From Trifolium pratense (Eukaryota > Streptophyta > Magnoliopsida > Fabales > Fabaceae): a stretch of 64,000 bases of DNA. The notes beneath the pieces were generated by a model. It saw only the letters and a list, made by a program, of their open reading frames with translations, searched no databases and had not been told where the DNA came from. The first letter of the stretch is position 1. Every line of letters starts with the position of its first letter. The translations under genes and the position numbers were made by a program. Location of the stretch: the NCBI RefSeq assembly GCF_020283565.1, contig NC_060063.1, positions 39,952,635 through 40,016,634 of the forward strand, given 5' to 3'. Below are positions 33,236 to 63,323 of the stretch, piece after piece.

Positions 33236-33311
33236 GGAAAATTCTTGCGTGAGGCCAGTAAAATGGCCTCATTAGTGAGGTCAATTGAATTGCCCAATAG
33301 AATTTTAAGTG
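33236..33311 (+). repeat. Left TIR of the giant MULE
   Basis: Begins GGAAAATTCTTGCG. The core GTGAGGCCAGTAAAATGG is identical to the right TIR. The preceding nine bases are the TSD. Confidence 0.85.
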
Positions 33312-34677
33312 ATGCCACATCAGCTCTACATTGTAATGAAGGTACATGATAAGACTTTTTACTGAAAAGTTTAATTATTGCACACAAGTCCCTCATAAAC
33401 TTAACAGTTATTTAGAATAATTTACAAATTTACAAATAAAAACAAGTTTTAATTGTCATTTAAAATTAGTTAGATAAAAATTTACAATATGTTTTATTTG
33501 ACAATATTTATTTTGTAATTGAAAACCCTAAAGCCGACCCGTTCTTCATCCTCCATCGTATTGTTCTTTTTTCTTCATCCCTGAATTCCACCTGTTCTTC
33601 ATCCTCCATCTTCTCCGTCGTATTATCTTTGTACTTCATCTTCTCCATCGTATTCTTTTTGTCCTCATAGACCGTTCGATCTTATTGTAACTCTTCCATT
33701 CGACTTGGTTGTGTTGGTTGTCGTTCTACTGGTTTGAAGCATTACTGCAACGTCCTCGTGTCCTGTCACAGATATGTTGTTCGCAAAATTATCTTTATTT
33801 TAATTTTCATTGAATTGGGGTATTTATTGTTAGCCAGAAAACGATCGATTTGGAATTAGGTTTGTATTTAAAATCGAAGTTGATTTGTTACCCAGAAACG
33901 ATCAATTTGGGGATTAGGGTTGTATTTAAAATTGACTATGATTGTAGTTGTTACCCAGAAAATTATGGAATTGGGGATTAGGGTTGTATTTAAAATTGAC
34001 TATGATTGTAGTTGTTACCCAGAAAATTATGGAATTGGGGATTAGGGTTGTATTTAAAATTAACTATGATTGTAGTTGTTACCCAGAAAATTATGGAATT
34101 GGGGATTAGGGTTTGTATGTTTCAAATGTTTAAATTCTGAATTTGAATATAGTGATATTATATTGAAAAGTTTAATCAAAAGTGAATGTGTAGTGTTTGA
34201 TTTGAATTGGAAATTTACATGTTGATACTGTGTTAACACTTTGTATGTGTTTCAATTGAATAGCTGCTGTTGTGAAGTCAACTATGATTTCTCTACTGAG
34301 CAAACACAACGCATGGTCTGATATTCTCAGTATAGAAAGGAAACAACGGAGAAAACAATTGACAAGTTTGAAGTTGAAGGGCTTAGCATAGGAAATAGTT
34401 GCATAGGAAATAGTTTCCTGTAAAATTGAGATAAGCTCAACTAGTTTATACAACAATGATCTATATAAGCTGAATAATAATGTAAAGCATTGTGTTACAA
34501 TTCAAGGTTATACAATGTACCTTAAAGCTTTGTAATTTGAGTTATACAATGATATCGTAGATAATGCCTTGTAATAGAGTTCAATTTTACATGCACGATC
34601 TTAACAAATGTATACATTCATATTTATATACAATGATAAATTTGTGATTGATTGCTTTATATTGACTTGTTTTGTTA
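33312..34677. other. MULE left subterminal region with 64-bp tandem repeat
   Basis: Pyrimidine-rich sequence with repeated ttcatcctcca phrases (33545-33660) looks like a 5' untranslated region. It is followed by a tandem repeat of about 64 bp from 33827 to 34112; the landmark gattaggg falls at 33912, 33976, 34040 and 34104, with more diverged units before. Only one possible exon is visible (34264-34391). Confidence 0.6.
34264..34391 (+). other. Possible exon, basic C-terminal peptide
   Basis: After an acceptor-like TTGAATAG, one frame runs to TAG at 34389-34391. It contains ATG at 34284 and encodes a K/R-rich tail (IERKQRRKQ). If the upstream pyrimidine-rich region is a leader, this may be part of a short plus-strand MULE transcript starting in the left TIR. 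Weak evidence. Confidence 0.25.
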
Positions 34678-34682
34678 GATAG

Positions 34683-36883
34683 TGTAACACCCTAACCCAT
34701 ACTACCCTTAAAAACGTAATTTTAAAAACTTTTCAACAAGTGTAAAGGCAGAGTGCCACGCGGTAATTAAAACACAAGCATACACACAGAGCATCATGAA
34801 ATTTAACATGAAAAGCAACAGCGGATTCATTTCAAACCAAGCATGCATATATATATACATATATATATACATAAGCCAAATTCATCCCTAAGGATGCCAC
34901 TTATACAAGAACTAGCATATCAAAAGGTAACACCGATATAGATGAAATCCAAGCGTAACCCCGACTCGATGTTACATTACCAGAGCATTTACTATTTACA
35001 AACTCTAGTCAAAAGCTAGTACTAAGAGGAGTAATCTATTCTAAGTCTCCTCACCAAAAGGTACTTCAACGCCACGCTAAAACCGCAGTCTAAACGTCGG
35101 CACCGTCCTCAGCCTGAATATCTGAACCCCCAAAGGTCCAGCAAATAACACAAAGCAGAGAGTTAGAAAACATAACCGCATATCATACGAGTATAAGAAA
35201 GGTCTCACACTTTCGAACTACATCATACATATTCTAACTCACGCCAAATCATCGTACCAAACAGTTATCAATTAATAAAGTTTAGCACAGTTCAACCAGA
35301 TAATGTCACATACCATTTATCAAATATATGCGCATTTACCCTAATGTATCTAATGCCAATCATTCTATGTCATGCCATCCCTAGACACGACTAATGCATG
35401 TGGTACCAATTGCCTTTTACCCCTCATGGATAAGTTAAACAGTTTTACATCTTGCCGGATTGTTCGGAACTTACCAAACCTTCATATCCCTCATGGATAA
35501 GTTAAACAGTTTTATATCCTGCTGGATAGCAGCTCTAGATCTTAGGGATTCATCTAATCCGATCCTCGGCTTCCTTATGGACTCAAAAATCCATTTAAAT
35601 CTATTGGAACCCAAGTTTCCAATTTCAACATATATATACATGAATGCATGTATGTTTGCACATATCATCAATATGATATTTCTAGCTCGAAGCTACTCAT
35701 TATGAATGCGGGAACACAATCCTAACACATTCACTTAACATTGCAACTTAATGCCAAAACATCACATTGCTCACTTTAAGCTACAACTTATTGCATACAC
35801 GTTTATCAATCATATAACGATTAACAATAAGCATTAACAGTATCAACATGTATCAACAATCATGTAAGGATACTCCTAAACCATGTTACAAGTGCCAAAT
35901 CACACTTACAAACATTAACAAAAGTTGCAGGTTCAGTACTGTTCGCTAAGCGAATCCAAAGCGAACAGGTAGCGAACTCATTCGCTAAGCGAATCTCAAT
36001 TCGCTGTAGCGAACCACATCAGAGGATTACAGGTGCATGGCGAACAGGTAGCGAACTCGTAGCGAACTTATTCGCTGCAGCGAACTCCTATTCGCTAAGC
36101 GAACAACACCAGAAAGAAAATCTGTTCTTGAGTTATCTAAGGCGGTTTAACCTCAAATCAACTCAAAAATTCATCTAAACATGTTATAAATTCATATAAA
36201 CAGCCATTCCAAACATATATGGTATCAAGGAACATTAATCATCCCTTCCAAACATCCAAATACCTCTAACAATCAAAATCAAGCCAATTACTTGAGTTTT
36301 AAGTAACTTTCATAAACTTTCCAAAAATGATCCAAACACATACATATTCATCATGGAATCAAGCTAGTGATTAACACATACAAAGTGATGATGAAGAACA
36401 TCATACTCACATACAAAAGCTTATCAAAAGTCTAAAAGAAATTGAGTGGGAGAGTTCGGGAACGGAGACATAGACAATCTCCCCCCTCCTTGTCACTCAA
36501 GAATCATGAATTCTAATCTCTTACCTTAAGCAAAGATGATGATCCAAGCCTTCTCTTGCTCAAGCTTTCTCTCTTGATCCAAACCCTAGCTTAGCTCTTA
36601 TGGTTTTGCTCTTGCTCTACTCACTCAAAACTCAAAGATATGAAGTTATGAAACTATTCATAAGTTGGACTTGCTACTTATACTCTTTCCCATGGTCATG
36701 AACCAAGCCCATTTGGCTTAGGCCCATTGCCTCTCACGCCCCTCAAGCCCAAAACAAGGTTCTCGCGCCTAATAACTTACGATCGGCTAAATAATTATTC
36801 GCCGCTCACTAAAATAATAAAAGCCAATTAATAAATAAAATACATTTAATAAAATATACGATTACGAAAAACGGGTCGTTACA
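34683..36883 (-). repeat. 3' LTR of the Gypsy element
   Basis: 2201 bp, beginning TGTAACACCC and ending GTCGTTACA. It contains the AGCGAA/TTCGCT palindrome cluster and forms the stop codon of the polyprotein. Confidence 0.95.
35940..36106. promoter_or_regulatory. AGCGAA/TTCGCT motif cluster in the LTR
   Basis: Within about 165 bp the hexamer TTCGCT or its complement AGCGAA recurs more than a dozen times, including three perfect palindromes TTCGCTAAGCGAA. The same cluster sits at 42627-42793 in the other LTR. It is upstream of the likely transcription start, so it may be a binding-site array; function unknown. Confidence 0.55.
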
Positions 36884-39800
36884 ATCCTACCCCCCTTAAA
36901 AGAATTTCGCCCTCGAAATTACCTAGAAACAGATCGGGATAAGAATCTCTCATCTTGCTTTCCAATTCCCACGTCGCATTCTCACCAGCCGGTCCTCCCC
37001 ACACGACTTTCACGGATGCAATCTCTTTGTTTCTCAACCTCTTCACTTCTCTCCCTTCGATTCTCAAAGGCACAGTCTCGATGGTCAAGTCATCCCTCAC
37101 TTGAACATCGTCCGATTCAATCACGTGTGTCGGATCAGACACATACTTGCGCAACTGTGATACATGAAAAACATCGTGCAAATTCGCCAATGATGGCGGT
37201 AATGCAATCCTATACGCAACTTTCCCAACTCGCTTCAAAATCTCAAACGGCCCAATAAACCTCGATGTCAACTTCCTTGACTTCAATGCACGTCCTACTC
37301 CAGTAGTCGATTTAACTCGTAGGAATACATGATCCCCTTCTTGGAATTCAATGTCCTTCCTCCTCTTATCATGATAACTCTTTTGTCGACTCTGAGACGC
37401 TTTCATCTTCTCACGAATCATCCGAATCTTCTCTGTTGTTTCTTGTACAATCTCTGGTCCAAGAATTGCACCTTCTCCAGTTTCATACCAACACAGAGGT
37501 GTCCTACACCTTCTCCCATACAAAGCCTCAAACGGTGCCATTCCGATACTAGAATGGTAACTGTTGTTGTATGTAAACTCTACCAACGGCAAACAAGAAT
37601 CCCAATTCACGTTTTGCTCCAAAACACAAGCCCTCAACAAATCCTCTAAGGATTGTATCGTCCTCTCCGACTGACCATCTGTCTGAGGGTGATACGCTGA
37701 ACTCAACCTCAACTTCGTTCCTAAAGCTTCTTGCAAGCTTTCCCAAAATCTAGAAGTAAATCTCGGATCTCTATCCGAAATAATACTTGTTGGAATACCA
37801 TGTAGCCTCACAATCTGCTCCACATAAATCTCGGCCAACTTAGGCACCAAAGTACCTTTCCTGATAGCAATGAAGTGAGCACACTTCGTCAGACGATCTA
37901 CCACTACCCAAATCACTTCATGACCTTTCTTGGTCTTCGGTAAACCTCCCACAAAATCCATTGCAATGCTATCCCATTTCCATTCGGGTATAAACATTGG
38001 TTGCAACAAACCAAACGGCTTCTGATGTTCGATCTTCGATTTCTGACAAGTTAAGCATGAATAAACAAATTCAGAAATTTGCCTCTTCATTCCCGGCCAC
38101 CAAAATAACTTCCTCAAATCCTGATACATCTTGGTTACTCCAGGATGAATACTCAAACCACTTCTGTGACCTTCTTCCATGATCATTCTCTTCAATTCGG
38201 GTACGTCTGGTACACAAACTCTTCCTTGAAATCTCATGACTCCACTCTCGTCAATCTTGATATTGGTCTCCTTACCTTCATTGATGAGTACCATCTTCTC
38301 CATCAATCTCTTATCCGATTTCTGACCTTCTTTAATATCTTCAAGAAAAGGATTCGTCAATCTTAACATTCCAAGCTTCACACTTGAAGAAGTAACCTCG
38401 CACACAAGACTCAAGTCTCGGAATTCTTCAATCAACTCTAACTCTCTCACCATCAATGATGACATATGCAAAGTTTTCCTACTTAATGCATCGGCCACCA
38501 CATTGGCTTTTCCGGGGTGATAACTCAATTCAAAATCGTAGTCCTTTAAGAATTCGAGCCATCTTCGTTGCCTCATATTCAACTCCTTCTGGTCGAATAA
38601 GTACTTCAGACTCTTGTGATCACTGAAAACTTCAAACCTCGATCCATACAAGTAGTGTCTCCACACTTTCAACGTAAACACCACTGCGGCTAACTCTAAA
38701 TCATGCGTTGGATAGTTCCTCTCGTGAACCTTCAGTTGCCTTGAAGCATACGCTACCACATTACCCCCTTGCATAAGCACTCCACCAAGTCCTAACTTCG
38801 AAGCATCGCAATATACGACGAACGACTCTTTGGCATCGGGTAAAATCAACACGGGTGCAGTAGTCAATCTTCTCTTGAGTTCTTGGAAACTCTTCTCACA
38901 AATACCATCCCAAACAAACGCTTGATCTTTCCTCGTCAACTTGGTTAACGGTAAAGCCAACTTCGAAAAACCTTCGATGAATCTTCTATAATAACCGGCT
39001 AAACCAAGGAAACTTCTAATCTCTGAAACAGATTCCGGCGTTCCCCACTGTGACACAGCGTCAACCTTCGCAGGATCTACCGCGATTCCTCCACTTGAAA
39101 TTATATGCCCTAGGAAACTCACCTCTTTCATCCAAAATTCACACTTCGACAACTTGGCATACAACTTCTTCTCCTTCAAGACTTGCAAAACAATCCTTAA
39201 GTGCTCTTCGTGCTCTTCCTCGGATTTTGAGTAAATCAAAATGTCGTCAATGAACACCACCACGAATCTATCCAAAAATGAATGGAAAATTCGGTTCATA
39301 TACTCCATGAAAACTCCAGGTGCATTGGTCACACCAAACGGCATAACTGAATACTCGTAGTGCCCATACCTCGTCCTAAATGCAGTCTTAGGTATGTCTT
39401 CCGTCTTCACTCTAATCTGATGGTATCCAGATCTCAAATCGATCTTACTAAACACACAAGCTCCAACTAGTTGATCCATCAAATCATCTATCCTCGGAAG
39501 TGGATATTTATTCTTGATCGTCACTTTGTTCAACTGACGATAGTCTATACATAATCTCATGCTTCCATCTTTCTTCTTTACAAGCAATACTGGCGCTCCC
39601 CATGGCGAAACACTCGGTCGAACAAACCTCTTCTCAAGCAGCTCTTCAAGTTGCTTCTTCAATTCATTCAACTCAGACGCTGACATTCGATACGGCGCCA
39701 TCGATATCGGACTAGTTCCAGGTACTAGGTCGATAGAAAACTCTACCTCTCGCTTTGGAGGCACGTCAGATATGTCATCCGGAAACACATCTGGGAATTC

Positions 39801-41243
39801 ACAAACGATCGGTAACTCTTCTATCTTAACTCCTCCTTCGAGTTTCAATGATGCAAACATCATGAACATCTCGGCATGTTCTTTCAACGCTTCCGATACT
39901 TCCTTCCCGCTCATCAAATGCAAGTTCCCCTCCGGCTTCGGAAAAACAACGGCCTTCTCACGACAGTTGATATGAATTCGATTAAAGATTAACCAATTCA
40001 TACCAAAAATCACATCCATACCACTAAGTGGAATACACACTAAATCCATTCCAAAATGCTTACCAAAAATGGTTACGGGGCAATTACGACATACTTGTCG
40101 AGTAATTACTGAACCATTAGCAGGAGTTTCTATTTCCATCCTACCCATCATATCCGTTAAAGGAATACTAAGACGCTTCGCACAATCCAAAGAAATAAAA
40201 GAATGCGTCGCTCCCGTATCTATAATCGCAATTAAAGGAGTGTTATAGATGAAACACGTACCTCTAATGAGATTGTCCTCAAGGCTAGCATCCTCTCCAC
40301 TTAAAGCAAACACCTTGCCCATCACCTTCTTGGGCTTCTTGCAGATTATACTCTTGTGGCCCTCCTCACCACAGTTGAAACAAAAGACTCTTGTCCTACA
40401 CACTTCGGCTTTGTGGCCCAACTTCCCACAATTCAAACACTTGTCCAATTTCTTCTGGCAATCATACGACATATGACCCCTCTCTCCACATTTGTAACAA
40501 TTCCCATTCACCGGCCTCTTACCACCACTGGTATTACCCCTACCGCGGTTATCATAAGGTTTCCCGCGCTCTTGTCCTTTCCCTTTTCGGTCATTCACAG
40601 CCTTGTAGTAGTTCACCTTCGCCATACCATCTTCATCACAGATCCTACTCTTGTTCACAAGGGTCGCAAAATCCCTTATCTGCGAAAATCCAATCATATG
40701 CTTAATGTCTGGACGTAGACCACTTTCAAACTTCACACACTTGTCGTTCTCCGCTTCCAAAGTGTTGTAATGCGGACTAAACGCACACAAAGTCTCAAAC
40801 TTGACGGCATAATCAGCTACCGTCATATTTCCCTGTTTCAACTCCATGAATTCCACCACCTTCTTATTCTTCACATCCACAGGAAAATACTTGACCAAAA
40901 ATTCTCTCTTAAACATTGCCCATGGTATAGCCATACCACCGGGTCCTAGCCTCAACTTGGCATTCTTCCACCACACATTCGCTTCCTCGCGCAACACATA
41001 TGTCCCAAGGGTTGTCTTTCCTTCCTCGGAACAATCCATTGCTTCAAAAATTATCTCAAGTTCCTCCAGCCACTTGTAAGCTCCATCCGGGTTGTAACCT
41101 CCGGTAAATGTTGGCGGTTTCTGCTTCATGAACCTCTCCAACCTCATCTCTACCTCTCTTCCAGGTTGATGATCTCTAACCACAATGTTGGTGAGTGCGG
41201 CCAAAGCTTCCGCAATCTGAGCATTCGTTCTCGCAGCAGCCAT
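36879..41243 (-). CDS. Gypsy gag-pol polyprotein, intact
   Basis: ATG at 41243, TAA at 36879-36881, 1454 residues without interruption. Order of domains: retrotransposon Gag ([19 protein letters not shown] region); three CCHC-type zinc knuckles ([42 protein letters not shown]); aspartic protease ([10 protein letters not shown]); reverse transcriptase ([12 protein letters not shown] and [10 protein letters not shown], the catalytic Asp pair); RNase H ([13 protein letters not shown]); integrase (zinc region with [19 protein letters not shown] and [11 protein letters not shown] core with [17 protein letters not shown] and [10 protein letters not shown]); and a C-terminal chromodomain-like segment ([18 protein letters not shown]). 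The order RT-RH-IN defines Gypsy. The stop codon lies within the first bases of the LTR. Confidence 0.95.
36884..36899 (-). other. Polypurine tract of the Gypsy element
   Basis: The minus strand reads TTAAGGGGGGTAGGAT immediately before the 3' LTR. The gag-pol frame is still open through it. Confidence 0.85.
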
Positions 41244-41347
41244 GATTCCTGAACGAATCACAACTAGACGTTAGAAAGTACTAACAGTGTTCCCTACACA
41301 TGCTCATACGGGGAAAAGAAAAGTCCTAGTTGGTTCACACGAACCGA

Positions 41348-41362
41348 CCTGCTCTGATACCA
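41348..41362 (-). other. Primer-binding site of the Gypsy element
   Basis: The minus strand reads TGGTATCAGAGCAGG a few bases inside the 5' LTR: initiator-Met tRNA complement. Confidence 0.9.
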
Positions 41363-41366
41363 CTAT

Positions 41367-43569
41367 TGTAACACCCTAACCCATACTACCCTTAAAAGAC
41401 GTAATTTTAAAAACTTTTCAACAAGTGTAAAGGCAGAGTGCCACGCGGTAATTAAAACACAAGCATACACACAGAGCATCATGAAATTTAACATGAAAAG
41501 CAACAGCGGATTCATTTCAAACCAAGCATGCATATATATATACATATATATATACATAAGCCAAATTCATCCCTAAGGATGCCACTTATACAAGAACTAG
41601 CATATCAAAAGGTAACACCGATATACGATGAAATCCAAGCGTAACCCCGACTCGATGTTACATTACCAGAGCATTTACTATTTACAAACTCTAGTCAAAA
41701 GCTAGTACTAAGAGGAGTAATCTATTCTAAGTCTCCTCACCAAAAGGTACTTCAACGCCACGCTAAAACCGCAGTCTAAACGTCGGCACCGTCCTCAGCC
41801 TGAATATCTGAACCCCCAAAGGTCCAGCAAATAACACAAAGCAGAGAGTTAGAAAACATAACCGCATATCATACGAGTATAAGAAAGGTCTCACACTTTC
41901 GAACTACATCATACATATTCTAACTCACGCCAAATCATCGTACCAAACAGTTATCAATTAATAAAGTTTAGCACAGTTCAACCAGATAATGTCACATACC
42001 ATTTATCAAATATATGCGCATTTACCCTAATGTATCTAATGCCAATCATTCTATGTCATGCCATCCCTAGACACGACTAATGCATGTGGTACCAATTGCC
42101 TTTTACCCCTCATGGATAAGTTAAACAGTTTTACATCTTGCCGGATTGTTCGGAACTTACCAAACCTTCATATCCCTCATGGATAAGTTAAACAGTTTTA
42201 TATCCTGCTGGATAGCAGCTCTAGATCTTAGGGATTCATCTAATCCGATCCTCGGCTTCCTTATGGACTCAAAAATCCATTTAAATCTATTGGAACCCAA
42301 GTTTCCAATTTCAACATATATATACATGAATGCATGTATGTTTGCACATATCATCAATATGATATTTCTAGCTCGAAGCTACTCATTATGAATGCGGGAA
42401 CACAATCCTAACACATTCACTTAACATTGCAACTTAATGCCAAAACATCACATTGCTCACTTTAAGCTACAACTTATTGCATACACGTTTATCAATCATA
42501 TAACGATTAACAATAAGCATTAACAGTATCAACATGTATCAACAATCATGTAAGGATACTCCTAAACCATGTTACAAGTGCCAAATCACACTTACAAACA
42601 TTAACAAAAGTTGCAGGTTCAGTACTGTTCGCTAAGCGAATCCAAAGCGAACAGGTAGCGAACTCATTCGCTAAGCGAATCTCAATTCGCTGTAGCGAAC
42701 CACATCAGAGGATTACAGGTGCATGGCGAACAGGTAGCGAACTCGTAGCGAACTTATTCGCTGCAGCGAACTCCTATTCGCTAAGCGAACAACACCAGAA
42801 AGAAAATCTGTTCTTGAGTTATCTAAGGCGGTTTAACCTCAAATCAACTCAAAAATTCATCTAAACATGTTATAAATTCATATAAACAGCCATTCCAAAC
42901 ATATATGGTATCAAGGAACATTAATCATCCCTTCCAAACATCCAAATACCTCTAACAATCAAAATCAAGCCAATTACTTGAGTTTTAAGTAACTTTCATA
43001 AACTTTCCAAAAATGATCCAAACACATACATATTCATCATGGAATCAAGCTAGTGATTAACACATACAAAGTGATGATGAAGAACATCATACTCACATAC
43101 AAAAGCTTATCAAAAGTCTAAAAGAAATTGAGTGGGAGAGTTCGGGAACGGAGACATAGACAATCTCCCCCCTCCTTGTCACTCAAGAATCATGAATTCT
43201 AATCTCTTACCTTAAGCAAAGATGATGATCCAAGCCTTCTCTTGCTCAAGCTTTCTCTCTTGATCCAAACCCTAGCTTAGCTCTTATGGTTTTGCTCTTG
43301 CTCTACTCACTCAAAACTCAAAGATATGAAGTTATGAAACTATTCATAAGTTGGACTTGCTACTTATACTCTTTCCCATGGTCATGAACCAAGCCCATTT
43401 GGCTTAGGCCCATTGCCTCTCACGCCCCTCAAGCCCAAAACAAGGTTCTCGCGCCTAATAACTTACGATCGGCTAAATAATTATTCGCCGCTCACTAAAA
43501 TAATAAAAGCCAATTAATAAATAAAATACATTTAATAAAATATACGATTACGAAAAACGGGTCGTTACA
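41367..43569 (-). repeat. 5' LTR of the Gypsy element
   Basis: 2203 bp; the promoter LTR. One extra base in aaaagacgtaa and one in atatacgatg distinguish it from the other LTR. Confidence 0.95.
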
Positions 43570-43574
43570 GATAG

Positions 43575-44110: not shown

Positions 44111-47042
44111 TCAAACTTTAACCAACGCCTTCCTTTTCTTCCACTGAACATCCCAATGTTTTGCAGCCTTCGACACGAGTTCATTCACCAACACATTATT
44201 AGCTGATTGACAGATAAAAAGAGCTAGTTTCATCCTTGTGACTGTAACAACCTGAGATTACAGTAATAAAAACAGTTAGTTAAATTAGAAATATAATTAG
44301 AGGGACAAAGTATAAGAAATAGACTTAACTATACATTTGGTCCCTTACGTTTATTTTAGGTTTCAATTTGGTCCCTTACGTTTAAAAAGTATCAATTTGG
44401 TCCCTTACGTTTATTTTAGGTTTCAAGTTAGTCCTTTCCGTCAATTTTGTCACATGTGGCAGTCAATTGCATACGTGGACTGACACGTGGCACTTTGACA
44501 TGCTGACACGTGTACTGTTCAAACGGTGTTAGTGACAAAATTGACGGAAAGGACCAACTTGAAACCTAAAATAAACGTAAGGGACCAAATTGATACTTTT
44601 TAAACGTAAGGGACCAAATTGAAACCTAAAATAAACGTAAGGGACCAAATGTGTAGTTAAGCCTAAGAAATAATATATAATGACCATTAGTTTAACTTAC
44701 AGTTACGTTTTGATACTCATTCATTAATGCACACTCAATCATCCATTTTGCCACCCATACTCCACAGTCGTTTCTATAGGCAGTCATTACAAAGCAAGTG
44801 TTATAGTCATAGGTAAAGTTCAATAAATTTAAAATATAAAAAGGGTTTTATGAGACGTACGAGCCTGGTCGCTGATGTGCGAGGCCAGTAGGCTGAATAA
44901 GGTTATAGTTTGTGATTAAATATTGATGCAACTTAGGATCCAGTACACCAATAGAATCATGAAGCAGTATTTTCTCCAGAAATATAGCCTGAGAATATTG
45001 GAAAAACCAATTTTGAAAAAAAAGCATATATTTGAATGTAAAACTTAGTAGGTAACAATAAAGTATAGATAAGAATATATACCACTGTCATTATGGAATG
45101 ACGTCTATTATGATATCTTTCTTCAGTAGGCAAAGAGTCCAACCATAAAAGTTTTCTATCCAACAAATCAACAACCAGTAGATACCAGTGTGATCCTTCG
45201 TCGTTTATAGGAATAAAAATCTGTAAACAATCTAATATTTAGTCATACGAACATAATTATCAAAAGCTAATTAACAAATATTGTTGTAAAGTAAAATGTT
45301 AACCTTGGAAACATGAGTTTTTGGTTTCAGGAAGTTATGTTGATATTTTACCCTAACTTGATCAGCTGAGTGTTTGGATTCCAGAGCATATTGCTTAAAA
45401 AAAGATGCAATTTAAGTCAATAATTAATACTTAACAGATGTAAATTTAATAGTTGGGTTAGTGGCAATCACCGCAAAATCCGTAGGCATATACCAAACCC
45501 TCCTTGTTTTGCCCATTTTATCCTGAAGCCAATTTGATCTGGCAACTACTAGATTAAGAATCTGTACAGATAAATATAAATGATATTAGATATAAATTAT
45601 ATTAAACTTCTGTATGGAACATTGTAATTAAAAAAAAAATATAACCTCTTGGTCAACAGGGCATCTAGGCATAAGAGACTTAAGCGTTTTCCTATCTCCA
45701 TAGACACCTGATGTAGTTCTAACCAGAACCTCATCACTACAAACAATAGTTGGTGTGCAATGTTAGTTATTATGAAATGCAATGTCATAAACAACTATAA
45801 ATGCAGAATTATATGGTACAAAAAGAATGACCCCAGTAGCTGATGATCATCTTTCATAAAGATGTATGCAGCTGTGTAAGTACATATGTCGTTCAATTGC
45901 ATTTTTTGAGTCGGTTGAAACGTCATTGGCATCCACTGTTATTAAATAGGTATGAAATTAAAACTGTGGTAAGTAAATAAAATTCATATAAAGGTTTACT
46001 TTGTTGTAGTTAAAAAAAAATGAAATTAGTTAAGTCTTACTTCAGGAATATAAAAAGGAACGTCGGCACCCTCGTATCCAAACGCACTTGTTGGATGGAA
46101 GTTTAAGTTAAAATCATGGTCATCATCTTGTTCTGGTTGACAGAATAGATTCCTCCTAATCCTGTCTAACTGATATGCATCAAGAATAATCTCACCGTCA
46201 TCGTTAGGCTTCATTTTTGGTGGGGCAGATGTTGTTCCCTTGGTCATATTAAAAATTGGCTTTGTTATTTTTCTAGTTGTTTCTGCCCGTTTTTTAACCG
46301 GACGTTTACGGTCCACCTCAGGAGTCGAGGCAGTGGACTCGTAATCTGTTTCGTTGTCGCTTTCATCGATCCTTCGGCTACTATTGTATTTACTGCACAA
46401 ACAAATAAAGTCAGATGAACATACAAACCTAAAAAAACTACAACTAACCAGATGAACCCCTTATGAACCAGATGAACAAACCATTAGTGGTACATACAAA
46501 CCTAAAAAAACTACAACTAACCATATGAACCCCTTATGGACCAGATGAACAAACCATTAGTGGTACATACAAACCTAAGTAGAGTTAAAAACCCCTTTTG
46601 GGTTGTAGTCAGAACTTAAGTATTGTCTAAGTATTTGCAGATTTTTTAACTAAAAAATTTGTCCATATTTGTAGAGTTAAAAATGGTTCTGATTTAAAAA
46701 AATAAAGTATAGTTAAAAATGGTTCTGATTTAAAAAGAAAGTAAAATTAGGGTTCATTAGCAAAATACATTGCCAAAGTCCCTAAGTTGAAGAATATAAG
46801 ACGTAAGAGGAATGACAACAACCATAGGTAAAATATATCTGCAAACATTACCTGGATGATAGGTCAATAACCTTTTTTTTGAAGCTATCTTTGCGAGTTT
46901 CAGTCTCAGAGTAATGCTTACTAATTTCAATAGAGTGAGTGGTAGTCTTTGATGTCATCTTAACTGTATTGTTTGTTGCATCTGTTTCAGGTATTTTTTG
47001 TTTGGTGCGTTTACTTGGCCTGGGAGGAGAAGGTCTTCTCAT
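44111..47042 (-). CDS. Ulp1-like C48 cysteine peptidase, 10 exons
   Basis: Predicted exons, in transcript order: 47042-46852, 46392-46041, 45935-45832, 45736-45646, 45561-45472, 45393-45304, 45220-45083, 44988-44861, 44773-44701, 44251-44111. All introns are GT-AG; the joined frame is 1398 nt, 465 residues, no stop. The N-terminal third is basic and low-complexity. The C-terminal part carries the Ulp1/C48 core: GSHWYLLVVD (His about 317), LLWLDSL (Asp about 334) and NDCGVWVAKW (Cys about 398), so a catalytic triad is present. C48 enzymes release SUMO-type modifiers. Ulp1-like genes are known cargo of plant Mutator-like elements (Kaonashi type). The last intron holds a MITE (44322-44663). The third donor (GTCATT) is weak. 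Confidence 0.82.
44322..44663. mobile_element. Fold-back MITE, Mutator-type, inside an intron
   Basis: A 342-bp element with TIRs of about 130 bp made of GGTCCCTTACGTTTA blocks and a short CACGTGGCA-containing loop. A perfect 9-bp TSD, taagaaata, lies at 44313-44321 and 44664-44672. Related to the element at 42-450. It lies in the last intron of the Ulp1-like gene (44252-44700) and leaves splice sites intact. Confidence 0.85.
46419..46580. repeat. 73-bp tandem repeat in intron 1 of the Ulp1-like gene
   Basis: acatacaaacctaa recurs at 46419, 46492 and 46565, giving two full units and a partial third, with only a few changes. Confidence 0.8.
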
Positions 47043-47369: not shown

Positions 47370-47429
<60 letters not shown>

Positions 47430-49709: not shown

Positions 49710-49719
49710 TCCACCAAGT

Positions 49720-50148: not shown

Positions 50149-50322
50149 TAAATTACAAGTTTTCAATTGTCATTATAATCACAAACTACTAACAAACTAC
50201 CAAAATACATGCAACATCGGCGGCAAACATCAAGTTTTCTAAAATGATACCCGGCAAAAATCAAGTTTCACAAAATATAATCAAAATACTAATAGTTACA
50301 AACTTTGAAATCAACTTAAATA

Positions 50323-51505
50323 TCAATTTAAGCTCCTCACATAAAAGGTATGGTCATCATATATGTTAGATGTGTTGAATAGTAGGCGGTCTCCAACTTT
50401 AAATCCGTTAATGGCAACAACTTCCCTCCATCCCCTAATGATCGATACCACGAACGGATCCATTTGATACTCTAGCTCACACTTATGCTTTTCTCTGATT
50501 GTTCCAATAATATAGATCTCATCCAACATAGTGTCACACAAGTACTCCCCCATATCGTCTGGCAATATCTGCAACAGATAAAAGAAATTTGATAAGCATC
50601 AATTTGTCTCAAATTCGGATAATCAATTTAAACATTATCAAAAACAATTGGATTGAGATACCAACCAAATATGGAACAATTTCAGGATCATCCTTCATAG
50701 TAATTTCGAAGGTAACAACTTTCCGGAGAGCTCGTGATTGGGTATGCCAAGTAGGGAATTTATCAGGAGTAATTGGGTCCTCTTTGGGAATGATCTGGAA
50801 CTGATTGTTCCCCAAAAATTTGAAGAGAATTGGATGATGACCTTGAAAATTGTAATGTTCTCGTATAGTCATCCAACCGTCCGTAATTCTAAGGACATCA
50901 TCATCATCGTGGAACTCTACGCAGAGTTGAAGACCTTTGCAATCAAACAGAAACCAAAATTCTCCCAACTCAGACTTACAGTTTTCATAAAAACTGCGTT
51001 CAACCTCGCCCTCGACCTAGAGAATAAACAAACCGAAAGTAATCATAACATAGATTAGAAATCATAGTTACAGTACCTTCATAGTTATTTACAAACCGAA
51101 ACAAATCATAATTTACAGTACCTTAAAACAATAACCCAACTCTAAATCAAACGAAAACAAATAAAATTAACATCACACATAACATGCTCTGTTTTTTGGC
51201 CAAAGATTTGTGACATGCTCTGTTTTTTTAATTTTTTTTAATCTAACTTGTCAAAATCATTGTAAGATCTAGACCCAGTTTCAAAACGAAATAAATCAAC
51301 ATATAACATGCTCTGTTTTCTAATCTATGGTTTGAACATCATGCAATTTTTTAAAAAATCATATTTATACTGTGTTTAACTTAAATATGACCCAAACGAA
51401 GAAATCAACGAAACATAGTACCAAACTTACCTCTCCTGCAACATGAACAGTCAAAAAATAATCCCTTGCTGGCTTTCGAAGAACATCGGCAAGAGTTTCC
51501 ACCAT
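50323..51505 (-). CDS. B3-like DNA-binding protein 2
   Basis: Exons 51505-51431, 51016-50666 and 50568-50323 join in phase 0 (GT-AG) into 223 residues. The product parallels protein 1 throughout: YFLTVHVAGE at the exon 1 end; ITDGWMTIREHYNF and ILFKFLGNNQFQIIP in the N-terminal B3-like domain; LPDDMGEYLCDTMLDE and INGFKVGDRLLFN in the C-terminal one. Exon 1 (25 codons) and exon 3 (82 codons) have the same length as in the paralogue, so the pair arose by tandem duplication. Divergence at many residues with an open frame suggests both were kept under constraint. Its start faces the 4.2-kb satellite, which separates it from the divergent gene at 56641. Confidence 0.75.
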
Positions 51506-52089: not shown

Positions 52090-55000
52090 TCTAAGTCATC
52101 CACGTGTATTTACTCCGGTGGAAACGGAGTAAATATCTAAGTCATTAGCATTAGGGTAAAATGTTAAGTCAAAGAACCTAAAAAATTGAACTACTCCGAT
52201 TTCGAAGTCATCCACGTGTATTTACTCCGGTGGAAACGGAGTAAATATCTAAGTCATTAGCATTAGGGTAAAATGTTAAGTCAAAGAACCTAAAAAATTG
52301 AACTACTCCGATTTCGAATTCAATAAATCTGTATTTACCCGGTGGAAACGGAGTAAATATCTAAGTCATTAGCATTAGGGTAAAATGTTAAGTCAAAGAA
52401 ACTAAAAAATTGAACTACTCCGATTTCGAAGTCATCCACGTGTATTTACTCCGGTGGAAACGGAGTAAATATCTAAGTCATTAGCATTAGGGTAAAATGT
52501 TAAGTCAAAGAACCTAAAAAATTGAACTACTCCGATTTCGAATTCAATAAATCTGTATTTACCCGGTGGAAACGGAGTAAATATCTAAGTCATTAGCATT
52601 AGGGTAAAATGTTAAGTCAAAGAACCTAAAGAATTGAACTACTCCGATTTCGAAGTCATCCACGTGTATTTACTCCGGTGGAAACAGAGTAAATATCTAA
52701 GTCATTAGCATTAGGGTAAAATGTTAAGTCAAAGAACCTAAAAAATTGAACTACTCCGATTTCGAAGTCATCCACGTGTATTTACTCCGGTGGAAACGGA
52801 GTAAATATCTAAGTCATTAGCATTAGGGTAAAATGTTAAGTCAAAGAACCTAAAAAATTGAACTACTCCGATTTCGAATTCAATAAATCTGTATTTACCC
52901 GGTGGAAACGGAGTAAATATCTAAGTCATTAGCATTAGGGTAAAATGTTAAGTCAAAGAACCTAAAAATTAGAACTACTCCGATTTCGAAGTCATCCACG
53001 TGTATTTACTCCGGTGGAAACGGAGTAAATATCTAAGTCATTAGCATTAGGGTAAAATGTTAAGTCAAAGAACCTAAAAATTTAAACTACTCCGATTTCG
53101 AATTCAATAAATCTGTATTTACCCGGTGGAAACGGAGTAAATATCTAAGTCATTATAGCATTAGGGTAAAATGTTAAGTCAAAGAACCTAAAAAATTGAA
53201 CTACTCCGATTTCGAATTCAATAAATCTGTATTTACCCGGTGGAAACGGAGTAAATATCTAAGTCATTAGCATTAGGGTAAAATGTTAAGTCAAAGAACC
53301 TAAAAAATTGAACTACTCCGATTTCGAAGTCATCCACGTGTATTTACTCCGGTGGAAACGGAGTAAATATCTAAGTCATTAGCATTAGGGTAAAATGTTA
53401 AGTCAAAGAACCTAAAAAATTGAACTACTCCGATTTCGAAGTCATCCACGTGTATTTACTCCGGTGGAAACGGAGTAAATATCTAAGTCATTAGCATTAG
53501 GGTAAAATGTTAAGTCAAAGAACCTAAAAATTTAAACTACTCCGATTTCGAAGTCATCCACGTGTATTTACTCCGGTGGAAACGGAGTAAATATCTAAGT
53601 CATTAGCATTAGGGTAAAATGTTAAGTCAAAGAACCTAAAAAATTGAACTACTCCGATTTCGAATTCAATAAATCTGTATTTACCCGGTGGAAACGGAGT
53701 AAATATCTAAGTCATTAGCATTAGGGTAAAATGTTAAGTCAAAGAAACTAAAAAATTGAACTACTCCGATTTCGAAGTCATCCACGTGTATTTACTCCGG
53801 TGGAAACGGAGTAAATATCTAAGTCATTAGCATTAGGGTAAAATGTTAAGTCAAAGAACCTAAAAAATTGAACTACTCCGATTTCGAATTCAATAAATCT
53901 GTATTTACCCGGTGGAAACGGAGTAAATATCTAAGTCATTAGCATTAGGGTAAAATGTTAAGTCAAAGAACCTAAAGAATTGAACTACTCCGATTTCGAA
54001 GTCATCCACGTGTATTTACTCCGGTGGAAACGGAGTAAATATCTAAGTCATTAGCATTAGGGTAAAATGTTAAGTCAAAGAACCTAAAAAATTGAACTAC
54101 TCCGATTTCGAAGTCATCCACGTGTATTTACTCCGGTGGAAACGGAGTAAATATCTAAGTCATTAGCATTAGGGTAAAATGTTAAGTCAAAGAACCTAAA
54201 AAATTGAACTACTCCGGTTTCGAATTCAATAAATCTGTATTTACCCGGTGGAAACGGAGTAAATATCTAAGTCATTAGCATTAGGGTAAAATGTTAAGTC
54301 AAAGAACCTAAAAAATTGAACTACTCCGATTTCGAAGTCATCCACGTGTATTTACTCCGGTGGAAACGGAGTAAATATCTAAGTCATTAGCATTAGGGTA
54401 AAATGTTAAGTCAAAGAACCTAAAAATTTAAACTACTCCGATTTCGAATTCAATAAATCTGTATTTACCCGGTGGAAACGGAGTAAATATCTAAGTCATT
54501 ATAGCATTAGGGTAAAATGTTAAGTCAAAGAACCTAAAAAATTGAACTACTCCGATTTCGAATTCAATAAATCTGTATTTACCCGGTGGAAACGGAGTAA
54601 ATATCTAAGTCATTAGCATTAGGGTAAAATGTTAAGTCAAAGAACCTAAAAAATTGAACTACTCCGATTTCGAAGTCATCCACGTGTATTTACTCCGGTG
54701 GAAACGGAGTAAATATCTAAGTCATTAGCATTAGGGTAAAATGTTAAGTCAAAGAACCTAAAAAATTGAACTACTCCGATTTCGAAGTCATCCACGTGTA
54801 TTTACTCCGGTGGAAACGGAGTAAATATCTAAGTCATTAGCATTAGGGTAAAATGTTAAGTCAAAGAACCTAAAAATTTAAACTACTCCGATTTCGAAGT
54901 CATCCACGTGTATTTACTCCGGTGGAAACGGAGTAAATATCTAAGTCATTAGCATTAGGGTAAAATGTTAAGTCAAAGAACCTAAAAAATTGAACTACTC

Positions 55001-56336
55001 CGATTTCGAATTCAATAAATCTGTATTTACCCGGTGGAAACGGAGTAAATATCTAAGTCATTAGCATTAGGGTAAAATGTTAAGTCAAAGAAACTAAAAA
55101 ATTGAACTACTCCGATTTCGAAGTCATCCACGTGTATTTACTCCGGTGGAAACGGAGTAAATATCTAAGTCATTAGCATTAGGGTAAAATGTTAAGTCAA
55201 AGAACCTAAAAAATTGAACTACTCCGATTTCGAATTCAATAAATCTGTATTTACCCGGTGGAAACGGAGTAAATATCTAAGTCATTAGCATTAGGGTAAA
55301 ATGTTAAGTCAAAGAACCTAAAGAATTGAACTACTCCGATTTCGAAGTCATCCACGTGTATTTACTCCGGTGGAAACGGAGTAAATATCTAAGTCATTAG
55401 CATTAGGGTAAAATGTTAAGTCAAAGAACCTAAAAAATTGAACTACTCCGATTTCGAAGTCATCCACGTGTATTTACTCCGGTGGAAACGGAGTAAATAT
55501 CTAAGTCATTAGCATTAGGGTAAAATGTTAAGTCAAAGAACCTAAAAAATTGAACTACTCCGGTTTCGAATTCAATAAATCTGTATTTACCCGGTGGAAA
55601 CGGAGTAAATATCTAAGTCATTAGCATTAGGGTAAAATGTTAAGTCAAAGAACCTAAAAAATTGAACTACTCCGATTTCGAAGTCATCCACGTGTATTTA
55701 CTCCGGTGGAAACGGAGTAAATATCTAAGTCATTAGCATTAGGGTAAAATGTTAAGTCAAAGAACCTAAAAATTTAAACTACTCCGATTTCGAATTCAAT
55801 AAATCTGTATTTACCCGGTGGAAACGGAGTAAATATCTAAGTCATTATAGCATTAGGGTAAAATGTTAAGTCAAAGAACCTAAAAAATTGAACTACTCCG
55901 ATTTCGAATTCAATAAATCTGTATTTACCCGGTGGAAACGGAGTAAATATCTAAGTCATTAGCATTAGGGTAAAATGTTAAGTCAAAGAACCTAAAAAAT
56001 TGAACTACTCCGATTTCGAAGTCATCCACGTGTATTTACTCCGGTGGAAACGGAGTAAATATCTAAGTCATTAGCATTAGGGTAAAATGTTAAGTCAAAG
56101 AACCTAAAAATTTAAACTACTCCGATTTCGAATTCAATAAATCTGTATTTACCCGGTGGAAACGGAGTAAATATCTAAGTCATTATAGCATTAGGGTAAA
56201 ATGTTAAGTCAAAGAACCTAAAAAATTGAACTACTCCGATTTCGAATTCAATAAATCTGTATTTACCCGGTGGAAACGGAGTAAATATCTAAGTCATTAG
56301 CATTAGGGTAAAATGTTAAGTCAAAGAACCTAAATT
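52090..56336. repeat. 112-bp satellite with 12-unit higher-order repeat
   Basis: There are 38 head-to-tail units (landmark ggtggaaac from 52117 to 56269) of 112 bp; four units carry 2 extra bases (cattatagcatt). Two variants alternate. Type A (21 units) has gtcatccacgtgtatttact; type B (17 units) has ttcaataaatctgtatttac. The A/B order repeats every 12 units (1346 bp). Private variants recur at that spacing: aaagaaacta at 52395, 53741 and 55087, and cctaaagaat at 52625, 53971 and 55317. Type A units contain a G-box (CACGTG) and a perfect 10-bp inverted repeat, ATTTACTCCG / CGGAGTAAAT. The array lies between divergent B3-like genes 2 and 3 inside the MULE. Confidence 0.97.
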
Positions 56337-56640: not shown

Positions 56641-57775
56641 ATGGCGTCCTCGTCCAGACAAAGGTTTGTCCTTCTTACTTTTTGTCATCGTTTTTGTTAT
56701 CGATTTACATCCTATTTGTGTTCTTTGTTGTCGTTGGTTTCATTGATACTGTTCGTATCTACTAAGTTCATTCATGAGTAAATTCCTAAGTAGGAGAATT
56801 GCTTCGTTATTGTTTATAAAGACTTAGTTACATGATAAAGTGATTTGAGAGTAAATACATTCAACAAGATCTGCATGTGGTTTTTTTGATAAAGTGATTT
56901 GATAGTAGATTTTTTTTTTTTTTTAAACGATGTTTATTTACCTTCAATTACCAAGATCTGAAACGTTGATGCTATGTTATACTTCCAATGTGTTGTCTTA
57001 TTTGTAAACGATGTTATCATTATCAGACGTTGTTGGTGATTATTGGTTATGTTCTGTGTTCATGCACTGGTACTATTTGATGATGTTGTTTATTTATGTT
57101 GATTTAGGAATGTAAGTATGAACCCAGTCAAACCAGAGCCTGTTGACGTAATATGGTTAAGTTCAGATGACGAAGGTGATAATGTTTATCAGAGGTCTCA
57201 GAGGTTTGAAAGGAGGGTTGCTAATAAGGATGCTAATAGGGTTGCTAACAATGTTGCTCAAAGGACTGCTAAGGGGACTGGTATGATGGTGGACAACAAT
57301 GCTGGTAAGAGGAGGGTGGATAACAATGTTCAAAGAGTGGTTAAGGACAGGAATGAAATCTGTGAATGGATAACACAAGTTACACCAGCTATGCAGAATT
57401 TGAAGAGGAAACAAACACTAGTATTAGTTCACATTTGGTGCATTCTCAATTATGTATCACTTGTTATTTACTTTGTCTTACTGACTAATAATCTTGATTA
57501 TCTTATATTTGGTACAGCACATTCCTGCGTGGGTTGTGAAGCGTGCTCTAAAAGACAAGTGCGAGATTTACTTGCGATCTGCAGAGATGAAACGTACATA
57601 TGACTGTGCTATTTTGGATCCAGGACGCTCGTCGCAGAGATACATTGGAGATGGTTGGTATGACTATGTTGAAGTGCACAGGCCTAAAGTTGGTGACGTC
57701 CTCCACTTTTCTCTGAAACCACCTTATAACTTAATGGTTGTTTCATTGATGCGCCAGAAGCCTCGCACCCGCTGA
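56641..57775 (+). CDS. B3-like DNA-binding protein 3
   Basis: Exons 56641-56663, 57108-57420 and 57518-57775 give 197 residues; the ATG at 56641 joins in frame across the first intron. Residues 1-110 are hydrophilic and low-complexity, with an acidic WLSSDDEGDN patch and repeated RVANN/NNVQR-type segments. Residues about 113-197 resemble a single B3 domain: HIPAWVVKRAL, then RYIGDGWYDYVEVHRPKVGD and VLHFSL. It differs from genes 1 and 2 in having one domain and a different intron layout, and is transcribed divergently from gene 2 across the satellite. The GTATTA donor of intron 2 is plausible but not certain. Confidence 0.72.
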
Positions 57776-58736: not shown

Positions 58737-59265
58737 TTAGGTAAACATTTTAACATAAAAAAAGAAAATAATCCAAGAACAAATCAATAAATTCCTAAAC
58801 ATCTTTGCTGTCGATCTCTCGTTTTGTAGTTTCATCTTCATCTTCTCTCCCTTATTGAATTGAATTTCTTTAACAATTGAAACCACATCTTTGAACAACT
58901 CTGAGCATGTGCAACCACGACTGGGTTGAGTTTGTGATTCACGAACATTTGGACGAGCAGTTGGACGCACATAGGGAGGGTGGCCTTCAATTTCATCATC
59001 CCATATGAAAAGATTACAACTTCGAGCTCCCTGCAAATTATATTTCAATCATCAAAATGTTATACTTACCAAATTAAATCATGATCGAAATAGATCTACC
59101 AAGTATAAAACGATCTGTTAGCAAACCTACCCCATGAGTTGGACATTTCCAATATCTACGCTTAGGATTTTCGCCTGAATTGGATATGTACAACCTCATT
59201 GGATTTTTGCAACCACATTCTGGGATTTCGACTGCCATTGAATTTGCAACAGATGAAGAAGACAT
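58737..59265 (-). CDS. GRF zinc-finger protein with C-terminal membrane segment
   Basis: Exons 59265-59131 and 59030-58737 (GT-AG, phase 0) encode 142 residues. The N-terminal part matches the GRF zinc finger: CGCKNPMRL (Cys17, Cys19), then GENPKRRYWKC (Cys41) and ARSCNLFIWDDE (Cys50 and the F-x-W-D end). A charged region with a probable coiled coil follows (EKMKMKLQNER). The end, FRNLLICSWIIFFFYVKMF, is hydrophobic and could be a tail anchor. GRF fingers bind single-stranded nucleic acid in other proteins; the role of these short plant versions is unknown. It lies downstream of the transposase gene, same strand. Confidence 0.78.
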
Positions 59266-59837: not shown

Positions 59838-62720
59838 TCAATCATCAGTAGCAGCCTTTTCAACTTGTTGTAGCAGACTGTAGCACGAACGTGAAGATTG
59901 CCCGACACTCTGTTGTAGCATACCGTAGCACGAACTTGTAGTTTGCCCAACACTCATTCCATACATTGGGTATACGGGTTGCAAATGCATTGGTTGAAAC
60001 ATATGATGTACCATCGGCATAACAGGTTGAACTCCACACATTGCATTTAAATGTCTGCTTGTGCCTGTAACATCCATCTGTGCTTGGAAATGCATTTGCT
60101 TGTAACATCCATTTGTGTCTGCTTGTGTTGTCACTGTGGCCTTAGCGCCACGGTGTATCGGTGGACGTGAACCCTTCTTTTGCACACTTCTGTCAACATT
60201 GCAGGTTGCTTTTCTTTTCTTTTTCTGATTATAAAAAAATAATGGCAAAATAATTATTATTAAATTTCACATAATAACACAAAATATTTAATAAAACATA
60301 TTATACCTCATCCATTTGGCTTATAGCATCAGATATCGACACCGACTGCAAATCAACTATTGGTTCTGTCGCTTTTTGTGTACCCTGCAAGTTTAAACAT
60401 ATCAACTATAATGTTTAATAACAAATCAAACAGTAACTATAACTAAGTAATCACGAGTTATTGAAATAACCTCGGAACATGTCCTCGCATTATGAGTTGT
60501 AGCGTTGCATTTTCCACATCGCCTGACAGATTTTGGTTCTTTCTTTTTTTTCTTTGGAGCACCTTTACTCTTAACCGCCACCGGATCACCGACTGCTGGA
60601 TTTTGTGTCCCAATAATAGGATCATCATTAATGCAGTACTTTTTTTGTAATTTCATAATGTCATCCAAAATTTGGCCATACACACCATTCTTTTTTGCAG
60701 CTTCTTTGCAAAAACTTGTAAAGGCCGAACAATATGCACCAAAACGAGCTTCCTCAACTACGTTCGAATCAACATCACCATTACATTCCATGTTGTTCAA
60801 ATACTCAATTTTGGCATCCTTGGTCCATCGCGACAATACCAAGGGCCTAGGAATATGATCAACATGTTCATCCTTCATGACATAAAATATATGAGAACAT
60901 GGAACACCGCGAGAATCAAACAACTTACACGAACATTGCAATGTGGTACCATCAAATACAACTTTCCTTTCATATGTATCGTTACAAAATTTTGTTAATG
61001 TATAAATCTTTGTATCCCCGTGATCGCTTTTATGCTTAACTATCAATGCACCAGCCTTCAGAATTTGCTCTTTAACTTCTTTGAAAATCTCCGCAATATA
61101 AGTATTGGCGGCATCACTCTCAATCACATGCAGTTGAGTTGTCAACACAGGTACCGTAAACTTTGACTTAAAATCAGCTTCCAATTCATTATTTCTGTAA
61201 TCTCTCAAAACCTTATCAAAATTATGCATGAATTCAAAAATGCAGCCTTTCGTCCTGACATAAGTCTTTATTATTGCATTAACAGCTTCACATTGAGACG
61301 TAGTCCTTATACGTCCAAAAAACTGATCACGTAGATATCCAGTTGCCCATAGTGACCTATTCTCATAAGTTTTGACAACCCATGGATGTTGTTCCACTTC
61401 AGTTTCTTTAATTAGCTCTGACCAATACTCTTCAAATTCATCCTTTGTGAAATTTGAGTACATGGCTTTTTGAAAACCGTCCAAAAATTCTGGATTATCT
61501 TTCACATTCTCAACTGCATTCTTATTCAAATGCCAAGCACATAACCTGTGGGTGACATCGGGAAAAATCTGTTTTATGGCCTCCCTCATTGCCCCATCTC
61601 CATCTGTTACCACTGCTTTTGGTTGTTTACCTTCCATGCACTCTAAAAAACAATTCAACACCCACTTGTACGTCTCTGTCGTTTCATCTGCTACCAATGC
61701 AGCACCAAAAATTACTGTATGAGAATGGTGGTTACACCCTGAAAATACAACCAATGGATAGTTGTATTTATTCTTCCGGTAAGTCGTGTCAAAGGCAAGC
61801 ACATCACCAAAACAAAAGTAGTCTGATCTGCTACTGCCATCAGCCCAAAATAGAGACCTCATTCGTCCATTACTATTGTCGACGGCATACTCAGCATATA
61901 GCATGGGATCAGTAGACGACTTTACATTAAGATAATTTAAAGAAGCGACAACATCACCATCTTTAATACACTCACGCATTTTTTTATCAAAATAATTGTA
62001 CAAATCTTTCTTTGTAAATCCAACACTAGCATATCCTCCCTTCTGGGCAATCATGTACCCCATTATATGACAAGTTCTAATTCCACGTGTTTGAAGACCA
62101 TCAATCTGAGCCTTATCTGCTTCAGAAATTTTACGATAAACAGGGTGCAGGTGAACAAACCTAGCTGGGGTTAATTCATGGTTATGACACTCTACGAAAG
62201 CAGTAACTACATATCTATCCTTTTGTTTTCTGTATTGCACACGAAACCTAGCTTCACAATTTGTACGGCTCAAACATCTATGTTCTACTTTCCTATCTAA
62301 CCTGGTTAAATGTTTCTTCTCTCTTAAACCATGTCTGTTGCAAACAAACTGCTTCATTTGTGTTACTTTATTACCATCTAACTCTTTTATCCTACTAGAA
62401 GCTTTCATAATAGCAAAACCCTTACATTTACCATACCGGTAATAAAATTCATAAGCTTCACTAACAGTAGCAAATTCCATGGCTCGAATCTCATCAGAAG
62501 TAATTGAATCAAAATTTACCTCACTATGAACTGCAGCTCCAATATTATCAGATGCATCTTCGCCAGTCTCTGAACTTTCAGTCTCTGAACTTTCATCCCC
62601 ACTGGATCCTGAATAACTGTCATCCTCGTCGGCATTCGATTCTAAATCATACGTATCAGTACCTTTAGTGGAATGAAGGTCTCTGGACTCAACGTCAACA
62701 GATTCGTCGGTGTGTTCCAT
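59838..62720 (-). CDS. mudrA-like: MURA-type MULE transposase, 904 aa
   Basis: Exons 62720-60471, 60384-60307 and 60224-59838 join in phase 0 (GT-AG) into 904 codons without a stop. ATG 62720 is the first ATG in frame. After an acidic N terminus, residues about 82-190 form a FAR1/WRKY-GCM1-type zinc-binding DNA-binding region (FVCNRHG, then CHNHELTP). The MULE catalytic core has Asp311 (LAFDTTYRKN), Asp373 (VVTDGDGAM), the AWHLNKN motif and Glu478 (QCEAVNA). A SWIM zinc finger (CSC at 596-598, CSH at 608-610) and a CCHC-like knuckle (CGKCNATTHNARTC) follow. The exon 3 tail is rich in Met, Gln and Ser. This enzyme cuts the TIRs and should mobilise the whole element. It reads inward from the right TIR. 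Confidence 0.9.
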
Positions 62721-63248
62721 ATCTATATCATGAATTAACACAATATGTCAAACAACATAAATATTCATCGAAGTGTTCCATATCTATATCCCTAATTCCC
62801 AAATTTTATTATTTTTTGAATTGTAAACCCTAATTCCCAAATTACCTGAATGTCGCACTTGTCGCCCTCGATTGTATATTTATGGTCGGCGATTCAATGC
62901 GATAACATCAATGGCTAGCTCGTATGCAGTGTTGTTAAGAATAGAAAAGTTCAGTTGATTCAACAATGGCGGACGAAGGTTGGGTGGTGAGGTGAGATAA
63001 TACGATGTTGATGAACAGAAGAATGAAGAAGATGAATATTTTCTTTATAATTTGCGTTTTGATAATTTGATTTTTACAACATCATTATAATTAATAAAAC
63101 AATATAAATGTTGATGTAATTTACATAAATGTTGAGATAATTTATGTAACAATTTTAATGGTAGGGACTTATTTACAATTTTAATAGATGTGGAGATGCA
63201 TGGTAAGTGACATGCATTGTATTATCCTATGTGGCAGTTGAATAAGTC
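62721..63248 (-). promoter_or_regulatory. Transposase leader and promoter region
   Basis: DNA between the right TIR and the transposase ATG. It should contain the promoter and 5' leader. The cat-atctatatc phrase is duplicated at 62718 and 62779. No TATA box could be fixed. Confidence 0.4.
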
Positions 63249-63323
63249 CACTTACTTTTCTATTGGCCACAGTGGCGATCTCACCAAAGAGACCATTTTA
63301 CTGGCCTCACCATAGAAGCACCC
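63249..63323 (-). repeat. Right TIR of the giant MULE
   Basis: Read inward it starts GGGTGCTTCTATGGTGAGGC and shares GTGAGGCCAGTAAAATGG with the left TIR. The TSD tttaaagtt follows at 63324-63332. Confidence 0.85.

Follow-up and report, generated by a model that had tools for sequence, protein, structure and literature searches.

A single Mutator-like insertion in Trifolium pratense with a FAR1-type transposase and five further open genes

Analysis of a 64,000-nucleotide stretch of Trifolium pratense DNA (the window: contig NC_060063.1 of assembly GCF_020283565.1, positions 39,952,635 to 40,016,634 of the forward strand) recovered a 30.1-kb Mutator-like element (MULE) that ends at positions 33236 and 63323 and holds a transposase together with five further open genes. 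Congruent with a preliminary description of the same DNA, a single insertion with exact borders is supported, and it is the plain reading of these borders. We consider it probable that the unit represents a potentially autonomous MULE of the Jittery/Hop type, about 20.8 kb long without later guests, and that its accessory genes are genes of the element itself, kept for their benefit to it.

The borders consist of four features:
33227..33235, left target-site duplication (TSD), TTTAAAGTT
33236..33435, + strand, left terminal inverted repeat (TIR), its identical 18-bp core spanning 33249-33266 (+), with weaker homology over about 200 bp
63124..63323, - strand, right TIR, with its core at 63293-63310 (-)
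63324..63332, right TSD, TTTAAAGTT

The TTTAAAGTT repeat adjoins both element ends exactly; the inner limit of both TIRs is not sharp. At up to three mismatches the 18-bp core, GTGAGGCCAGTAAAATGG, matches the window only at these two places, in inverted orientation, with a mean of 0.03 matches in shuffles and two matches in 0 of 100. The borders were also sought blindly, by scanning for inverted ends (at least 25 of 40 bases alike) flanked by 9-bp direct repeats, excluding low-complexity words, words seen more than 60 times and units below 80 bp or above 40 kb. Four pairs were returned for the window, namely two miniature inverted-repeat transposable elements (MITEs; 38/40 and 36/40), the element ends (30/40) and an A-rich pair (26/40), the last of which can be equalled by the five block-shuffled controls (peaks of 23, 25, 23, 23 and 26). 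Thus, the inverted ends with an identical core and the identical repeat placed exactly at both TIR borders, as previously proposed, are both borne out, and the pair of ends is recovered blindly.

The transposase lies close to the right end:
59838..62720, - strand, FAR1-MULE-SWIM transposase, 878 aa in two exons, identified by Pfam domains and a GT-AG intron

Its main frame is open over 773 codons and carries an N-terminal FAR1 domain (PF03101, E 9.3e-17), a MULE domain (PF10551, E 2.6e-30) and a SWIM domain (PF04434, E 1.4e-4), each above the Pfam cut-off, as well as a Transposase_mut match (E 4e-7); the GT-AG intron joins this frame to the second exon, giving the 878 aa. The enzyme is thereby complete-looking, as had been claimed, but its assignment as MURA-type did not hold, since FAR1 is present at the N-terminus and the Pfam scan yielded no DBD_Tnp_Mut match in the transposase at E up to 0.01; according to the available part of PMC9569675, FAR1 is a domain of the Jittery transposase and DBD_Tnp_Mut one of MURA. 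From motif positions we assigned D311, D373 and E478 as candidate catalytic residues, with spacings of 62 and 105. The catalytic D318, D380 and E479 reported for TEDA are spaced by 62 and 99 (PMC9569675, same part), so that the first spacing is equal and the second differs.

The MULE domain of the transposase and the roughly 9-bp target duplication flanking the inverted ends place the unit in the Mutator superfamily, and the N-terminal FAR1 domain together with the SWIM finger points to a Jittery/Hop-like transposase, an assignment by domains that does not separate Jittery from Hop relatives. By the grouping of PMC6446971, a Jittery/Hop-type transposase would fall in the Jittery clade (group 36) or in the plant part of group 35, and FAR1 occurs as well in half of one plant/fungal sub-group of group 35 and in a few other MULEs. 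Maize Jittery shares with the present element the FAR1 N-terminus, the MULE and SWIM domains, a TIR length near 200 bp and the 9-bp TSD, and is described with a single transposase cDNA (2738 bp) and without a mudrB homologue, accessory genes being unmentioned in the portion of PMC9569675 at hand. Since TIRs and TSD enclose the transposase gene, it does not behave as a domesticated FAR1/FRS host gene. Pack-MULEs likewise have MULE ends around non-transposase genes; however, they rely on transposase in trans and carry gene fragments, with none of the 2004 set exceeding 7 kb (PMC6431247, in part), whereas here the element holds its own transposase.

Two of the accessory genes belong to recognized families:
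44111..47042, - strand, Ulp1-like (Peptidase_C48) gene model, 481 aa in ten exons with GT-AG introns
58737..59265, - strand, GRF zinc-ribbon protein, 142 aa in two exons

The Ulp1 model has nine exons at 44701-47042 and a tenth at 44111-44251, beyond a MITE, and contains no stop. It passes the Pfam cut-off (E 1.8e-12), displays His, Asp and Cys in their usual contexts by our own reading of the model, and weakly matches an Ulp1 protease chain in the PDB (1euv_A, E 0.017). The GRF product also passes its cut-off (E 9.5e-8), and the open spliced frames previously attributed to both genes were thus recovered. Frame scans covered the element apart from the + strand at 47900-55800 and the - strand at 52100-55800; an Rfam search returned no match at gathering score.

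An Ulp1 gene in such an element is not new. Jittery-like MULEs with an Ulp1 sequence have already been published, from grapevine and, as cited there from earlier work, from melon. They combine a Jittery-type transposase with an internal Ulp1 sequence as here, while neither B3-like or GRF genes nor tandem arrays of some length, present here, are mentioned in the part of PMC2528002 available. The Kaonashi elements put forward in the preliminary description are therefore a valid Ulp1-carrying comparison, but not the closest one. Similarly, of the supposedly unusual union of B3-like, GRF and Ulp1 genes, the Ulp1 part was already known, and for the remainder no MULE with B3 or GRF genes was found by title or abstract start in the open-licence literature searched, where the listed papers holding B3 together with Ulp1 or MULE terms (PMC12111241, PMC11536578 and PMC9070836) concern other subjects to judge by their titles.

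The three remaining genes are B3-like:
47881..49022, - strand, B3a, B3-like protein, 227 aa in three exons
50323..51505, - strand, B3b, B3-like protein, 223 aa in three exons, with its introns placed as in B3a
57118..57775, + strand, B3c, B3-like protein, about 186 aa in two exons, splice donor uncertain

Whole products scored 21.3 bits (B3a, E 2.6e-4), 17.5 bits (B3b, E 0.004) and 18.6 bits (B3c, E 0.0019) with Pfam B3, which is the sole match for B3a and B3b and the best of four for B3c; on the B3 regions alone the E values were 3.1e-4, 0.027 and 5.9e-4, respectively. All lie under the gathering cut-off of 30.1 bits, a PDB sequence search with the B3-like proteins found no relevant chain, and AlphaFold modelled the B3a frame too poorly for the fold to be judged (mean pLDDT 34.4), and for these reasons B3-like is only a probable label. 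For the intron of B3c only weak splice-donor candidates exist, none of them good by splice-site scoring. Of the earlier claim of three B3-like proteins with open frames, the agreeing B3 calls stand, tempered by the sub-threshold scores and the weak donor.

B3a and B3b have both intron positions in common and are 61% identical in amino acids. Over 223 codons, the NG86 method gave 0.28 nonsynonymous (dN) and 1.05 synonymous (dS) substitutions per site, a ratio of 0.26 (bootstrap median 0.26, 95% range 0.13-0.37, 199 of 200 replicates usable), and LWL85 gave dN 0.25 and dS 0.73, a ratio of 0.35. The introns are 69 and 72% identical, hardly under the exons (71-73%), with a shuffled control of intron 1 averaging 62% and reaching at most 70%. 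As introns are nearly as alike as exons, the exon-intron contrast shows no constraint by itself, and the claim rests on dN/dS. The two genes are an old tandem pair by dS and, judged by the ratio, have been maintained under constraint, whether within the element or within a host, and are not decaying fragments; for B3a and B3b, the contention that the cargo is unbroken is hence supported.

Tandem repeats occur at three places in the element:
33827..34118, subterminal tandem repeat, 4.7 units of 64 bp
49501..49709, two units of a 112-bp repeat, upstream of B3a
52093..56334, tandem array of the 112-bp repeat, 37.8 units, upstream of B3b

The long array amounts to about 4.2 kb of the 20,845 bp that remain without guests. 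Among 40 units, the 37-bp core is identical to the reference in 37 and differs by one base in three, and a perfect 9-bp dyad is present in 20, with 19 units one base short (one of them with a further change) and one carrying a substitution. The units resemble one another far more closely than B3a resembles B3b, so that homogenisation or spread of the array postdates the gene duplication. Homogenised satellites are common, and homogenisation alone shows no function. Outside the arrays, 11-mers of the unit are merely scattered, both inside and outside the element. Few words are enriched in the non-coding DNA of the element relative to the rest of the window (at best ACCGACAC, 7 versus 0; ATCAACAT, 6 versus 0; CACCGACAC, 5 versus 0), and they were dropped as a target motif, being few and with CACCGACAC lying wholly in one local repeat (49741-50095). 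Separately, two 170-bp copies, 85% alike, occur at 49706-50155 between B3a and B3b and hold all five CACCGACAC of the window.

Aggregated, we propose that a MULE of the Jittery/Hop type would have inserted once, making the 9-bp target duplication, and that its FAR1-type transposase, to go by domains and ends, would move the unit by cut and paste after binding to the terminal repeats. The GRF zinc-ribbon, the Ulp1-type cysteine protease and the three B3-like genes, carried as predicted open gene models, would most likely be kept as helpful to the element: the protease may strip SUMO-like tags from silencing or repair factors, and the B3-like proteins may bind DNA of the element, for which the 112-bp repeats preceding B3a and B3b are possible sites. 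Several points weigh against this proposal. A single copy of the element was seen and the benefit of the accessory genes is conjecture; furthermore, the B3 scores (14.8-22.1 bits throughout) are all below the cut-off, the N-terminal halves of B3a and B3b gave no B3 match in Pfam, and a host-derived tandem B3 pair would give the same dN/dS.

The last point leads to the alternative that survives best, which we nevertheless hold to be unlikely, that of a one-off capture or macrotransposition, where MULE ends mobilised a host stretch with a tandem B3-like pair and other genes, leaving a set private to this insertion. The intron-exon structure and selection signature of B3a and B3b fit an ordinary host pair too, and viral and prokaryotic contigs, searched with the transposase alone, yielded no second copy (2 and 10 peptide-pattern stretches, respectively, none confirmed as relatives). 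On the other hand, Ulp1 sequences recur in Jittery-like MULEs (PMC2528002, in the part available), and captured fragments are usually non-functional, as stated in the accessible part of PMC13317346, whereas five open genes are found here.

Going beyond the element-gene explanation, one may picture a Jittery-type lineage with a built-in regulatory module of the three B3-like, GRF and Ulp1 genes, a VANC-like anti-silencing system drawn from unrelated families with the fast-homogenising 112-bp array as its binding target; this we judge to be rather improbable. The comparison originates from KAONASHI/KIU and VANDAL elements of Arabidopsis, which are multi-gene MULEs as here, with KIU genes carrying an Ulp1 domain, as is also found in a gene of the present element, and with VANC targets that are often tandem repeats in non-coding DNA (PMC13317346 and PMC5735166, both in part). 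In the same portions, VANC proteins are reported to bind short motifs arrayed in tandem within the elements that encode them (PMC5735166), and Ulp1-carrying VANC genes to hypomethylate related elements (PMC13317346). Both groups are however described there as non-TIR MULEs, whereas TIRs are present here, and the Pfam scans made, with partial strand coverage of the element and no search with VANC itself, gave no match to DUF1985.

Two later guests are certainly nested in the element:
34683..43569, - strand, Ty3-type retrotransposon with long terminal repeats (LTRs), outside the MULE proper, TSD GATAG
44322..44663, MITE of 342 bp within the final intron of the Ulp1 model, 9-bp TSD TAAGAAATA

Two direct repeats set 6.7 kb apart in the element (34680-36883 and 41364-43569) were rejected as a duplication, being the 99.86% identical LTRs of the former guest. 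Its open gag-pol frame of 1463 codons at 36879-41270 encodes domains of gag, protease, reverse transcriptase, RNase H and integrase. So little divergence between the LTRs suggests a recent arrival, and the MULE was already present before it. Together the guests account for 9.2 of the 30.1 kb, and removal of both, with one TSD copy of each, leaves the 20,845 bp; of the previously described element of about 30 kb, the exact borders hence stand, and the size does not apply to the element proper. Elsewhere in the window, a MITE with a 9-bp TSD TATTTAAAA at 42-450 is about 72% alike to parts of the one at 44322-44663.

Such nesting raises the question of a composite, in which some accessory genes (Ulp1, GRF or B3) stem from older transposons within the MULE whose ends have decayed. 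Ulp1 domains are known in CACTA elements too (PMC2528002, the part available), and a pair with a 10-bp TSD at 17469-52043 would enclose Ulp1, B3a and B3b. This pair is however AT-rich with 25 of 40 bases alike, where the 9-bp controls peaked at 23-26, and it crosses the well-supported left border; the element itself aside, no other listed pair with an 8-, 9- or 10-bp TSD brackets an accessory gene. The one listed CACTA-like pair (40038-44534, 11/16) starts within the retrotransposon and encloses no whole gene. As intact genes are also not expected in decayed guests, we find a composite quite improbable.

In gapped alignment the two ends agree at 82 of 111 aligned positions over their first 120 bp and at 131 of 189 over 200 bp; the scores at 120, 200, 300 and 400 bp exceed the average of 300 random window pairs by 4.7 to 6.3 standard deviations. 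At lengths of 120 and 300 bp none of the 300 scored as high, whereas for 200 and 400 bp the best of them outscored the real ends, perhaps owing to other inverted repeats in the window. That the ends derive from different elements with a TSD matching by chance, for which these better random pairs and the agreement of only 6 of the outermost 13 bases may be cited, is extremely improbable given the identical 9-bp repeat exactly at both borders and the identical 18-bp core beside them and nowhere else in the window.

Other probable mobile DNA lies to the left of the element. A sequence resembling a Helitron 3' end is located at 33170-33199, 28 bp left of the element TSD, with a ACCCGTGCATCGCACGGGT hairpin, six bases and CTAG followed by T. 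Inverted arms of about 1 kb, 90% alike, at 2341-3357 and 14883-15876 were considered as a second MULE and rejected, as their frames are PIF1-helicase-like by eye and a Helitron remnant is likelier; they may be two Helitron fragments in inverted orientation. Between these Helitron-like arms, at 4322-13078, two direct repeats of 1.18 kb that are 99.2% alike and 7.6 kb apart are probably the LTRs of a retrotransposon. Finally, a Copia-like LTR retrotransposon (by eye) at 22063-26712 has a pair of 221-bp LTRs identical to each other, and its two long open frames adjoin.

Should the gene set recur in other copies, it would constitute a second, independently evolved accessory module in plant MULEs beside VANC, and would add B3-type DNA binders to the possible tools of transposons against silencing; the purifying selection on the B3 pair and the adjoining homogenised array make a binding test direct. 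Should the set instead be private to this one copy, it would be an unusual case of intact multi-gene cargo.

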